14,746 bases of DNA from Anaerolineales bacterium. GTDB lineage: Bacteria; Chloroflexota; Anaerolineae; Anaerolineales; Villigracilaceae. Both the position numbers and the translations under genes were made by a program. The stretch is from the NCBI GenBank assembly GCA_015489255.1, contig WGAD01000051.1, positions 1-14,746 on the forward strand, written 5' to 3'. Positions 7,111 to 12,204 of the stretch are shown here, piece after piece. The notes beneath the pieces are model-generated. The model was not told the DNA's origin. It saw only the letters and a program-made list of their open reading frames with translations, and did no database searches. Positions within the stretch are counted from its first letter, which is position 1. Every line of letters starts with the position of its first letter.

Positions 7111-7872
7111 TCACTCCTCATAACCCAAAAGGGGCAAATAGGGGCCAAAAGCCCGGTTGCAAAGCGCAATTTCTTCGGGCGTCAGAACATCCCGAAAGCG
7201 TCCGGTCACGCCTTTGTTGAAGTGCATACCGCCAGAGGGTTTTCCCGGCTGGTATGACGCCAACACAGATTGGACCACCTCCGGCGCCAAATGCAGGTCC
7301 AAAAAGGCGAGGAGGCGATCAATCTGGGTGGCAAAATCATAACGTAAATCCTCGTAACGCAAGGTCAAAATCAGCGGATGCTGCCGCCAGCGAACCGCAT
7401 CTCGCACACGCCCAAGCATCCAGGGAATGCCAGAGGGGATATCTGGTACCGAGCGCCGAAAAGCTCGGGCGGCCATACTTTTGGGGTGTCCATGCTTTCC
7501 ATATTCCCAGGCCGAGAGCAACGCGTCGCGTGGGTCACGGTAAAGGCCAACCACCTTCATCCTGCCGGTATTCATCAAGCCGAAGAACAACCGTCTGGAT
7601 ACAAGACGGCGCGGATAGTTCGTCGGCCACCCGTGTGTTTTGACCACGAAAGAATGGCCGCAAACCCAGGGGAGGAGAACAAAACCCAGGTCTGGCAACA
7701 CTGGGCGAATCAGCGCATCTCCCGGAGACATCCAGCGCTCCAAATGGTAACGACGACGAAGGTCCAGGGCGTCATCGCCGCCGGCGGCTTGCCAGAGCGC
7801 CGAGATCAGATGATAAACCCAGGAGGTACCCGCACGCGGCATACCTGCCAGCAGCACAATGTTTCGCTTCAC
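7111..7872 (-). CDS. PAPS-dependent sulfotransferase
   Basis: 253 residues from a GTG start. The 5'-phosphosulfate loop is AGMPRAGTSW (9-18), KTHGW lies at 78-82, and the 3'-phosphate site is LYRDPRDALLSAW with RDPRD at 112-116. RYEDLR follows near 172, and the late PAPS-binding NKGVTGRF (219-226) corresponds to the family's RKGxxGDW. It would transfer sulfate from PAPS to a hydroxyl of the glycan, in the cytoplasm. It lies just downstream of the PAPS synthase gene, which fits. Start choice: an ATG at 7908 lies inside the stem of the inverted repeat and has no ribosome site, whereas the GTG at 7872 has GAGG 5 nt upstream and places the P-loop at the usual distance from the N-terminus. The acceptor is unknown. 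Confidence 0.88.
   Translation of the reverse strand: MKRNIVLLAGMPRAGTSWVYHLISALWQAAGGDDALDLRRRYHLERWMSPGDALIRPVLPDLGFVLLPWVCGHSFVVKTHGWPTNYPRRLVSRRLFFGLMNTGRMKVVGLYRDPRDALLSAWEYGKHGHPKSMAARAFRRSVPDIPSGIPWMLGRVRDAVRWRQHPLILTLRYEDLRYDFATQIDRLLAFLDLHLAPEVVQSVLASYQPGKPSGGMHFNKGVTGRFRDVLTPEEIALCNRAFGPYLPLLGYEE
7114..7119 (-). promoter_or_regulatory. Ribosome binding site deciding the SDR start
   Basis: GAGGAG on the minus strand lies 5 nt before the ATG at 7108 and directly abuts the alternative GTG at 7114, so ATG 7108 is favoured. It overlaps the final two glutamate codons of the sulfotransferase, coupling the two genes. Confidence 0.6.
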
Positions 7873-7877
7873 AAGGG

Positions 7878-7881
7878 CCTC
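7878..7881 (-). promoter_or_regulatory. Ribosome binding site deciding a GTG start
   Basis: GAGG on the minus strand, 5 nt before the GTG at 7872. It supports the shorter sulfotransferase reading over ATG 7908 and leaves the hairpin at 7893-7931 outside the coding region. Confidence 0.55.
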
Positions 7882-7892
7882 AAACGCAAACG

Positions 7893-9654: not shown

Positions 9655-10151
9655 TGCTTTGTCTCCTTTAACCATATCTTGAATTTTTCAAGCCCAATGT
9701 TCAGGCTGTCTTTCAGCGAATATTGTGTGTGCAAACAAGCAGCCCGCTGATAGCCGCTTTTCTCCAGCCAGGGGGAAAGTAACCGTTCCAGCCGACAGGC
9801 CTCTTCTTCCTGATAACAGGCGTTGCCAGCGCCCAACCGCCTGGGGAGAAACCGCAGCAAATCGCTGGCCAAACATGGAATTGCCCTGCCAGGCTCGCCC
9901 CGCCCGAGACGGCTGCAACAGAACATCATCCCAAGAGATGTTCAGAAAGTCGGTGATGCGCGCCAGGGTTTCCTTTGGAGTGCGCGCCAGGTCTTCATAG
10001 GCTATCACCAGATAACGCCCGGAAAAACGGCGCTGATTGTACCACCCCTTGCGGGCTGAACGCCGCCAACTCGTAGCGAACTCGTGCCCGATTTGGGATG
10101 CCCGCCAATGAAAACCAGGGCGTCGCGGAGCCGGATCCAATGTTCCTTCAC
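9642..10151 (-). pseudogene. Degraded PAPS sulfotransferase (internal deletion and frameshift)
   Basis: Three fragments in order reconstruct one sulfotransferase. Frame A starts at a GTG (10151) that overlaps the Gfo/Idh stop and gives FIGGHPKSGTSSL (residues 14-26), the 5'-phosphosulfate loop, but then meets a stop at 10005. The next recognisable part, ATSWRRSARKGW, RYLVIAYEDLARTP, NISWDDVLLQPSR and NSMFGQRF, lies in another frame from about 10075 to 9825. The end, EEEACRLERLLSPWLEKSGY, is in a third reading, closing at 9642 inside the start of the PAPS synthase gene. The span between P-loop and YEDL, which should hold the 3'-phosphate (RDPRD-type) site and well over 100 residues, is missing. 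Two 7-bp copies of AACTCGT (10068-10074, 10079-10085) lie at the junction. It is almost surely non-functional, though still translationally placed within the operon. Confidence 0.8.
9663..9668 (-). promoter_or_regulatory. Ribosome binding site of the PAPS synthase gene
   Basis: AAGGAG on the minus strand, 8 nt before the ATG at 9654. It lies inside the tail of the broken sulfotransferase and rules against the longer reading starting at 9675. Confidence 0.55.
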
Positions 10152-11146
10152 TGCCCGCTCTCCAACGCCGTTAGCGCCAGTTCCAGCGCGCGGATGCCAT
10201 CTTCCAATGTGCAACGCGGCTCCTCCTGCCCGCGCGCCACTGCCAGAAAATGCGTCATCTGGGCGCGGAAGAGCGCATCACGGGAGAAACCCTCCGGCAG
10301 TGGGTAAACCTCCCTGTGCACCGGCGGCGGCTCGGGGCTGTAAGCGCCAAAGGGTTGTGAGACAGAAAGATGATACAACGCGCCATCTTCTTGTTCCCAG
10401 CGCAGCGTTCCCTCCGTGCCGACAATTTCCAGTGTGTGCCGTGGCGGACGCTGGACGTAATTCAAATGTACGCCGCCGATCGCGCCATTGGCAAAGCGCA
10501 AGCCGATTTCAGCCACGTCTTCCACACCGTCCAGTTCCAGCGGCGAAAGGTGACCGGCAAAGGCCCACAAAGAGGCCACTTCGCCCAAAAGATAACGCAA
10601 ATAATCCAGTGGATGCACCAGGGTGCGGATCACGCCGCCCGCGCCGATCTGGGCGGCGTAGCTGCAGCGGTAATCTTCCCAGGGGTGCCACTGCGGCAGA
10701 TATTCACCCCAATGTGCGTGGACGGTCAGCACTTGCCCCAGCGCGCCGGACGCGATCAGCTGCTGAGCCTTCACCAGGGAAGGATGGTAGCGGAACTGAA
10801 AACCAACCAGAATTCGGCTTCCGCTGCGGGCTGCGGCCCGCTCCAGTTCATCCAACCCCTCCAGCGTGTGCGAAACGGGCTTCTCCAGCAGGATGGCGCA
10901 GCCAGCCCGGGCGGCGGGCAGGGCTGCCTCCAGGTGGAGAGCCGTCGGCGTGGCGACCACAACCCCATCCGGACGGTGGCGCCGCAGCGCCGTTTCCAGG
11001 TCGGTTTCCACTGGCAAGCCGTCCAGCTCATCATCTGGCAAGGTCGCCCGCCCCGAGCGCACCAGAACGACATCCTCGCCCAGCGCCAGCAAATGACGTA
11101 AATGGCGGCGTCCAATGGAGCCAAGGCCGACAATCAAAAATTTCAT
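10148..11146 (-). CDS. Gfo/Idh/MocA family NAD(P)-dependent oxidoreductase
   Basis: 332 residues. An N-terminal Rossmann fold has FLIVGLGSIGRRH (GLGSIG at 7-12), then VVVATPTALH and the family's EKP motif (88-90, in LLEKPVSH). The C-terminal half is the usual substrate-binding alpha/beta domain, including RTLVHPLDYLRYLLGE. Such enzymes oxidise or reduce a sugar or nucleotide-sugar hydroxyl or ketone. Gfo/Idh proteins accompany PtmA-like SDRs, NeuB and CMP-synthetases in legionaminic-acid-type loci, so a role in nonulosonate precursor supply is plausible but not shown. The ATG at 11146 overlaps the preceding sulfotransferase stop (ATGA) and has GGGGAG 8 nt upstream; eight extra upstream codons in the same frame are less likely to be coding. 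Confidence 0.9.
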   Translation of the reverse strand: MKFLIVGLGSIGRRHLRHLLALGEDVVLVRSGRATLPDDELDGLPVETDLETALRRHRPDGVVVATPTALHLEAALPAARAGCAILLEKPVSHTLEGLDELERAAARSGSRILVGFQFRYHPSLVKAQQLIASGALGQVLTVHAHWGEYLPQWHPWEDYRCSYAAQIGAGGVIRTLVHPLDYLRYLLGEVASLWAFAGHLSPLELDGVEDVAEIGLRFANGAIGGVHLNYVQRPPRHTLEIVGTEGTLRWEQEDGALYHLSVSQPFGAYSPEPPPVHREVYPLPEGFSRDALFRAQMTHFLAVARGQEEPRCTLEDGIRALELALTALESGQ

Positions 11147-12204
11147 ACAGAGCGCTCCCCTTTCACCCAACGGTCATCGCTTTCGTACCCCCAGTGAATC
11201 AGCTCATTCCCCGCAATGCGGGCGAAAAGCCGCCGATCTGGCCTCGTATAAAACTGCCGCCAGTTTCCCTGCCGTCCCCGCTTCAGCACGCCAGCCAGCC
11301 CCGGATTGCGCTGTTGCTGCCAGATTTTGTCCGGGTTGGCCTGCATTTCGGCGTTCACCCGGTCAGCGAGATCAGCGGGCAGGCTTTCCACGCCCAAAAA
11401 TTCCCAGATCTGCCGCATCCAATGGACAGGATCAACCAGCAAATCTTCATAGCGCAGCACAAAGTAGCGCTCACCGTATAGTCGGCGGGCGGTTTCGTCC
11501 ACCTCGCGCACGTCCACCGCCCAACGACTGCCCAGCCGCTGCAAGAACGTCGGCGTGAAAATAGAACGTTCTCCACGCAAGAAGGGCGTTGCATCCCGCT
11601 CCAGGGAACGCAGAATTTTCCTGTCTTCGGCAGTCAGGTTCTTTTCTTCCACCAGATCGCGGAAACGCTCCGAAAGCACCACATCCCGGCCATCGCGCAC
11701 GATGTAAATCAGGCGGGCATCCGGGTAAATGCAATGCATATCGCGCACGGCTTTCCCGTGCCAAACCGAAGTAGGGCTTTTATCACCTACAATGGCCTTC
11801 CCGGCAGCGGCCGCCTCCCTTTCCATAAGAAAATCGGCGACCACACGCAACAACAGCGCTGAAGGGTCCTCCCCACCATTCCAGCGGTTGGCACGATGGG
11901 TCAACCAGTCGACAACATCAGCGGAGCGTACCAGTTTCAACAACCCCGGCGGACGGGTGAAAAAATGCGCCTGATAATTCGCGTGCACCTCGGGGTGCAA
12001 ACGCACCAGTCGCAGCAGCAATGTGGTGCCAGAACGGGCATGCCCCAAGATGAAAAATTTGGGGCGCGGGAAAAATTGACGCACCTGGGCAAGGTCATCC
12101 TCGCACAACGCGGGCGGCGGACTAGAACGCTGAAAAGCTACTTCGCCATAACGAAAAGCCTGCCAGCCCAGGCGCAGGCGCCGCATCAATTTCTTTCGGT
12201 TCAT
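11143..12204 (-). CDS. PAPS-dependent sulfotransferase, longer form
   Basis: 353 residues. FFILGHARSGTTLL (50-63) is the 5'-phosphosulfate loop, GDKSP lies near 140, YIVRDGRDVVLS (RDGRD at 170-174) is the 3'-phosphate site, FVLRYEDLLVDP follows, and RGRQGNW (309-315) matches the late PAPS-binding RKGxxGDW. All elements needed for activity are present. A basic N-terminal stretch of about 35 residues precedes the fold and could help membrane or glycan association; no signal peptide is seen. The start is the ATG at 12204, overlapping the upstream glycosyltransferase stop as ATGA with a purine-rich GGTGGAG just ahead. It differs clearly from the shorter sulfotransferase at 7111, so the two probably sulfate different positions or sugars. 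Confidence 0.9.
   Translation of the reverse strand: MNRKKLMRRLRLGWQAFRYGEVAFQRSSPPPALCEDDLAQVRQFFPRPKFFILGHARSGTTLLLRLVRLHPEVHANYQAHFFTRPPGLLKLVRSADVVDWLTHRANRWNGGEDPSALLLRVVADFLMEREAAAAGKAIVGDKSPTSVWHGKAVRDMHCIYPDARLIYIVRDGRDVVLSERFRDLVEEKNLTAEDRKILRSLERDATPFLRGERSIFTPTFLQRLGSRWAVDVREVDETARRLYGERYFVLRYEDLLVDPVHWMRQIWEFLGVESLPADLADRVNAEMQANPDKIWQQQRNPGLAGVLKRGRQGNWRQFYTRPDRRLFARIAGNELIHWGYESDDRWVKGERSV

Follow-up and report, generated by a model that had tools for sequence, protein, structure and literature searches.

A predicted sulfation cassette within the ulosonate operon of a surface-glycan locus in a family of Anaerolineae

Closest described systems and recurrence of the locus

Bacterial gene clusters for sulfated glycans are the closest described counterparts of the operon examined here, in which a fused ATP sulfurylase/adenosine 5′-phosphosulfate (APS) kinase (Sat-CysC) and sulfotransferases lie among genes of the NeuB and NeuA families on a 14,746-base contig of an Anaerolineales bacterium (GenBank assembly GCA_015489255.1, contig WGAD01000051.1; hereafter the window). 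The synechan locus of Synechocystis yields a sulfated exopolysaccharide made with sulfotransferases (PMC8205485), and the text of that report does not contain the terms PAPS (3′-phosphoadenosine 5′-phosphosulfate), neuB, sialic, APS kinase or ATP sulfurylase, whereas the window locus holds both PAPS synthesis and NeuB. In the anaerobe Pontiella sulfatireligans, a putative cluster for a sulfated glycosaminoglycan has a sulfotransferase among glycosyltransferases (PMC7356697); the accessible passages name no PAPS-synthesis or NeuB gene, and the text lacks the terms PAPS and adenylylsulfate kinase. Sialylation and sulfation have been described together in the extracellular polymeric substances (EPS) of granular sludge by Chen et al. 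2023 (PMC10483923), where the accessible text gives BLASTp evidence for separate genes only. The terms sialic and nonulosonic are absent from the accessible text of PMC10746286, as are sialic, neuraminic and sulfotransferase from that of PMC9942424, which treats exopolysaccharide in general. Our searches of the open PubMed Central literature, partly diluted by unrelated or common words, found no characterised locus with PAPS synthesis, a sulfotransferase and NeuB; an earlier, sequence-only reading of the window knew of none with its exact combination.

The locus is real, conserved and functionally coherent, and arranges known enzyme families in a new way. Our sample of the family, probably that of Ca. 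Villigracilis, comprises 61 genomes, including the metagenome-assembled genome (MAG) that contains the window, drawn from a larger group; 45 of them carry Sat-CysC. In 42 of the 45, NeuB lies downstream of Sat-CysC on the same strand, 2.3–6.5 kb away, which rules out chance or a single-contig artefact. The sequence-only reading had proposed a sulfation module within a ulosonate-glycan operon and offered, as its own refutation, that the combination might exist in this contig only; the module is borne out by the same-strand linkage, and the refutation fails as the combination recurs across the family. In the remaining three genomes (G264, G283 and G257), Sat-CysC and NeuB are on separate contigs.

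For locus content, we counted 43 linked loci, i.e., the 42 above and one from the class-wide set (G213), with the three split genomes (six pieces) excluded. All genes are on one strand in 43/43, and the usual order is a sulfotransferase (ST1), a Gfo/Idh/MocA oxidoreductase, sometimes a 670-residue membrane protein, Sat-CysC, a GT-C glycosyltransferase, a short-chain dehydrogenase (SDR), a NeuA-type cytidylyltransferase fused to a HAD phosphatase (NeuA-HAD), NeuB, a sulfotransferase, a KpsC-like protein and sometimes a further sulfotransferase. A sulfotransferase is found in 42/43 loci, the exception being G275, whose stretch ends inside NeuB; ST1 is present in 25, the sulfotransferase after NeuB in 39, and the SDR in 42. 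The 670-residue protein, found between the oxidoreductase and Sat-CysC in many relatives, is a multi-pass membrane protein with no Pfam match (L013:3723-5741). Three of the named loci, not assigned to a family (L022, L024 and L028), retain Sat-CysC, NeuA, the KpsC-like gene and a NeuB that is more distant; the NeuA of L024 and L028 is without the phosphatase, and their NeuB is, in place of the short one, a ~630-residue protein fused to SAF and xylose isomerase-like (PF01261) domains (L024:4342-6255, L028:13453-15342). Sulfatase genes, which possibly remodel a sulfated glycan, occur in or near the locus of some relatives (L033:4229-5755, L020:2953-4461, L136:1901-3460). Scanning named genomes that have Sat-CysC yielded 25 loci, 12 with a same-strand NeuB match within the fetched stretch; as the named loci presumably overlap the family set (G287/L037; G277, G295, G296, G288, G264), they are not independent evidence and do not enter the counts.

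Sat-CysC as a general neighbor of NeuB in the class is unsupported. Of the 19 genomes that carry both genes elsewhere in the class, compared by eye, none has them within 10 kb: in three, they share a contig at ~20 kb (G087), 450 kb (G243) and 2.4 Mb (G067), and in 16, they are on different contigs, where closeness is not excluded in broken assemblies. In 20 Sat-CysC loci outside the family, picked among the best-scoring of 78 such genomes and several on short contigs, there was no NeuB match and one sulfotransferase-like match (26% identity, G202).

Within the family, genomes that lack Sat-CysC offer a natural comparison. Eleven of these 16 have a NeuB locus (including G250, G268, whose NeuB is 45% identical, and G260, a 3.9 kb piece), and the five without a NeuB locus match (G263, G271, G278, G290 and G297) were left out of the locus comparison. 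The 11 loci retain the SDR (10/11), NeuA (10/11), the oxidoreductase (9/11) and the KpsC-like gene (8/11), and none contains a sulfotransferase (0/11); GT-C is present in one, weakly, versus 40/43 linked loci. As the sulfotransferase profile was built from loci with Sat-CysC, circularity was checked genome-wide with Pfam models. With PF00685 (E 1e-5), sulfotransferases occur in 44/45 genomes with Sat-CysC versus 4/16 without, the latter four being 60–81% complete; among good assemblies (completeness at least 90%, contamination at most 5%), the counts are 38/38 versus 0/7 (Fisher 2e-8, uncorrected for kinship). With PF13469 (E 1e-8), they are 44/45 versus 3/16, and again 38 among the 45 good genomes. 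Since loci without Sat-CysC keep NeuB and most of its neighbors and have no sulfotransferase, the sulfation genes behave like a detachable cassette, presumably acquired or lost whole, with the ulosonate core left in place.

Gene content of the window and its sulfation genes

The window is the entire contig (C51) of a 2.2 Mb MAG that is 86% complete, and a single minus-strand gene run spans it, from a cut neuA2 to a cut glycosyltransferase gene. Profile matches confirm the genes listed by the sequence-only reading, namely Sat-CysC, two intact sulfotransferases, a wrecked third, NeuB, NeuA and glycosyltransferases, all on this one strand:

14149..14745, minus strand: second NeuA-type cytidylyltransferase (neuA2), PF02348 30.3 bits (cut-off 22.6), 5′ end lost at the contig end
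13205..14152, minus strand: 2-hydroxyacid dehydrogenase, SerA-like, PF02826 179 bits
12201..13205, minus strand: family 2 glycosyltransferase (GT2), PF00535 57 bits
11143..12204, minus strand: sulfotransferase ST1 (ATG 12204; open reading frame opens at TTG 12255), PF13469 92 bits
10148..11146, minus strand: Gfo/Idh/MocA oxidoreductase (from ATG; open reading frame opens at TTG 11170), PF22725 and PF01408
9688..10147, minus strand: remnant of a third sulfotransferase (ST3), PF13469 34 bits, C-terminal half
7942..9675, minus strand: Sat-CysC, fused ATP sulfurylase/APS kinase, NF004040 857 bits
7111..7926, minus strand: sulfotransferase ST2, PF00685 59.5 bits
6275..7114, minus strand: SDR, PF13561 173 bits
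5047..6297, minus strand: NeuA-type cytidylyltransferase fused to a KdsC-type HAD phosphatase (NeuA-HAD), PF02348 73.5 bits, TIGR01670 111.8 bits
4164..5042, minus strand: NeuB-family ulosonate synthase, 292 residues, PF03102 263.7 bits
2496..4154, minus strand: KpsC-like putative CMP-ulosonate transferase, 552 residues, KpsC-like fold match
1730..2494, minus strand: MptE-like protein, PF01973 41.5 bits (cut-off 34.6)
3..1733, minus strand: combined GT2 and GT4 glycosyltransferase, truncated at the contig end, PF00535 and PF13439

The overlaps between genes noted earlier are likewise present, with four neighboring pairs sharing 4 bases: neuA2/2-hydroxyacid dehydrogenase, GT2/ST1 (ATG 12204), ST1/oxidoreductase (ATG 11146) and ST2/SDR (sizes from open reading frame coordinates, ATG starts counted manually). 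NeuB (5042-4164) and NeuA-HAD (6297-5047) lie outside the range of 7111-12204 assigned to the whole module. Two CMP-nonulosonate synthetases had been called; of the two NeuA-type proteins present, the second (14745-14149) is truncated where the contig stops. The claim of a complete route from sulfate to a sulfated glycan was overstated: genes for a six-carbon precursor, a polymerase and an exporter were not seen in the window. A different contig of the MAG bears an exporter ATPase as well as a second NeuB. Taken together, that interpretation is partly supported.

With 857 bits against the equivalog cut-off of 669 for NF004040 (bifunctional sulfate adenylyltransferase/APS kinase), Sat-CysC belongs to this family. 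It contains the P-loop GLSGSGKS, and its nearest solved structure is 2gks, a bifunctional enzyme homologous over the full length (784 bits), from which the window protein differs in sitting in a glycan operon next to its presumed users. It is also the sole ATP sulfurylase match in its MAG. ST1 (92 bits, cut-off 27) and ST2 (59.5 bits, cut-off 22) are full-length and exceed the Pfam sulfotransferase cut-offs (PF13469/PF00685), and they contain the motifs GHARSGTT/RDGRD and GMPRAGTS/RDPRD, respectively, which we take to be the PAPS-binding stretches. ST1 resembles NoeE of Nod-factor sulfation in being a sulfotransferase that would act on a bacterial glycan, but it scores far below the NoeE model (NF052394, 29 bits; cut-off 500), and the window is without Nod genes. 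A crude hydropathy scan found no hydrophobic segments in the sulfotransferases or the KpsC-like protein. ST3 is truly wrecked: residues 37–56 and 218–307 align in two different frames to the undamaged ST3 that L015 has in the corresponding place, with ~160 residues between them gone. Other sulfotransferase matches in the MAG are on three further contigs.

Proposed pathway and competing explanations

From gene content, gene order, recurrence, co-absence and a fold match, we infer, with a probability of roughly 0.7, a sulfation cassette in the ulosonate core of an ABC-exported surface-glycan locus, with cytoplasmic sulfation before export. The operon is predicted to combine PAPS supply, sulfotransferases, and ulosonate synthesis and transfer, and would be part of a surface-glycan locus of this family. 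Its core (NeuB, NeuA-phosphatase, SDR, Gfo/Idh/MocA oxidoreductase and KpsC-like transferase) would make a CMP-activated ulosonic acid and incorporate the acid into a glycan at the cytoplasmic face, while Sat-CysC would convert sulfate to PAPS, from which the adjacent, soluble sulfotransferases would transfer sulfate onto the glycan. An ABC (Wzm/Wzt) exporter encoded farther upstream would then carry the glycan out.

Several observations weigh against this proposal. The window has no exporter gene, with Wzm/Wzt seen upstream in relatives. PAPS may serve two uses, as a strong match to PAPS reductase (PF01507, E 1e-36 or better; matches of 4e-13 and worse set aside) is found in 31/45 genomes with Sat-CysC, and with sulfotransferase genes elsewhere in the genomes, the locus-encoded enzymes may not be the sole PAPS users. 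Some loci without Sat-CysC are short (3.9–10 kb), so the absence of sulfotransferases from them is partly a contig limit. One family genome with Sat-CysC (G283) has no sulfotransferase match. Finally, these are related genomes: in the NeuB phylogeny, where G283 is labeled as lacking Sat-CysC, the Sat-CysC label needs five changes versus 10 in shuffles, and the starred branches force only one. In G283 (L131, L132), Sat-CysC is on a separate 11.9 kb contig, and contamination is 6%.

The alternative that survives best is that sulfation and the ulosonic acid are separate decorations that share a locus, in which case sulfate would end up on lipids, proteins or different sugars, and a sulfated ulosonate glycan would not exist. 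The ulosonate core persists in loci that have no cassette, such that neither needs the other; GT-C, whose presence follows that of the cassette, may be what produces the true acceptor; and sulfotransferase genes also occur elsewhere in the genomes. We nevertheless consider this the less probable explanation, though a serious one, as the sulfotransferases directly flank NeuB (39/43 loci) and share one strand with it throughout the linked loci.

It is rather unlikely that the NeuB product is a different ulosonic acid, e.g., an eight-carbon sugar resembling Kdo (3-deoxy-D-manno-oct-2-ulosonic acid). NeuB exceeds the general PF03102 cut-off by a wide margin (263.7 versus 22.1 bits), and its best NCBIfam matches are NnaB and PseI, but both fall below cut-off (262.7 versus 399.65 bits for the N-acetylneuraminate synthase TIGR03569, and 212.2 versus 340.25 bits for the pseudaminate synthase TIGR03586). 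PseF is likewise the best NCBIfam match of both cytidylyltransferases, again below cut-off (TIGR03584, 205.7; NeuA-HAD 137.3, cut neuA2 103.9). No SAF domain was found in the 292-residue NeuB, which would suit a Kdo-like product, but its PDB matches include 6ncs, a SAF-less sialic acid synthetase of 290 residues. The phosphatase of NeuA-HAD falls in the KdsC-type subfamily (TIGR01670, 111.8 versus 106.95 bits), as this alternative would predict, while missing the KdsC equivalog itself (NF007019, 137.2 versus 208). Thus, the nonulosonic acid named by the sequence-only reading agrees with the general family cut-offs, which NeuB and NeuA pass, but not with any substrate-specific one, and the choice over another ulosonic acid is inferential.

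The likeness to Kdo enzymes extends to the transferase. The 552-residue neighbor of NeuB has a fold match to the β-Kdo transferases KpsC and WbbB (6mgb, 8fuw, 8csb), and we regard it as a KpsC-like putative CMP-ulosonate transferase. KpsC is a CMP-Kdo transferase, and both KpsC and WbbB are linked to ABC-exported surface glycans, a tie the window locus is proposed to share; unlike KpsC, to which it is 12–15% identical, the window protein adjoins NeuB and NeuA rather than Kdo genes. It has no match to PF05159 (Capsule_synth) at 1e-3, the L013 orthologue scores 33.2 bits (cut-off 20), and many of the 120 homologues listed carry the domain. Residue D338 is invariant in 53 sequences and is a candidate counterpart of the KpsC catalytic Asp D160; a profile from the KpsC-like alignment had no match to PDB sequences at 0.01. 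The adjacent MptE-like protein may resemble Maf/GT42 enzymes and is at most a candidate ulosonate transferase.

Elsewhere in the MAG, contig C74 (L139) contains a SAF-type second NeuB with cytidylyltransferase, 4,6-dehydratase-like, RmlD-like, Capsule_synth and cut Wzt genes, a predicted second ulosonate pathway. In G027, Wzm/Wzt, a second Capsule_synth and a SAF-type NeuB lie upstream of the locus, and most of this block is also on C74.

We also find it improbable that the copy in the window is in decay and has ceased to yield a sulfated glycan. In favor of decay, ST3 is wrecked, and the window is without the GT-C gene and the sulfotransferase after NeuB that are common in relatives, ST2 occupying the gap between Sat-CysC and the SDR where 40/43 loci carry GT-C. 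Furthermore, the MptE-like gene adjoins the KpsC-like gene, as in 6/11 loci without Sat-CysC and, among the 43 linked loci, in the window alone, although MptE-like genes farther off do exist in genomes with Sat-CysC (G027; L028). An MptE-like gene followed by GT2 and GT4 (window 1730-2494 and 3-1733) is otherwise the arrangement of loci without Sat-CysC (6/11), which makes the window a mosaic. Against decay, Sat-CysC, ST1 and ST2 are full-length with their motifs, and the MAG has sulfotransferase matches on the three other contigs. The window copy is thus a mosaic or worn cassette, yet one with Sat-CysC and two sulfotransferases intact.

Least probable is that Sat-CysC is a sulfate-assimilation gene, supplying PAPS to CysH for cysteine synthesis and merely sitting in a glycan locus: strong PF01507 matches are indeed concentrated in genomes with Sat-CysC (only 3/16 genomes without it have one), the accessible text of a Chloroflexota survey takes sat, cysH and sir as assimilation (PMC10746286), and Sat-CysC has other surroundings outside the family, but 14/45 genomes with Sat-CysC lack a strong match, 13 of which have sulfotransferases, neither the 86% complete MAG of the window nor the one-contig G027 has any match, sulfotransferases track Sat-CysC better (44/45) than PAPS reductase does (31/45), and the position of Sat-CysC among sulfotransferase and glycan genes is fixed. 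In the one-contig G294, there is a single weak PF01507 match (6e-4). The co-occurrence supports a probable use of PAPS by the sulfotransferases, and the "dedicated" supply of the sequence-only reading fits the MAG itself but not the 31 genomes with a strong reductase match. Ca. Desulfolinea nitratireducens, a putative sulfate reducer according to the accessible text of PMC8359478, has its Sat-CysC in the glycan locus (L037:8149-9849); in G287, presumably the same genome, there is one sat match at 1e-40.

Implications for the family and for granular sludge

These genes offer a testable genetic source for bacterial slime that is both sulfated and sialylated. Tentatively, the cassette would be family-wide and belong to an ABC-exported, capsule-type glycan, the KpsC-like enzyme may take a CMP-nonulosonate in the role that CMP-Kdo has in enterobacterial capsules, the product would be sialylated as well as sulfated, and such Anaerolineae would be one source of the paired modification in granular-sludge EPS; at present, they are candidate makers. 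For sat genes in Chloroflexota MAGs, the locus carries a warning that they do not automatically denote sulfate assimilation or reduction. It supplies specific genes, a marker (Sat-CysC and NeuB no more than 7 kb apart) and a comparison between near relatives that have or lack the cassette, and who makes a sulfated, sialylated matrix thereby becomes a testable question.

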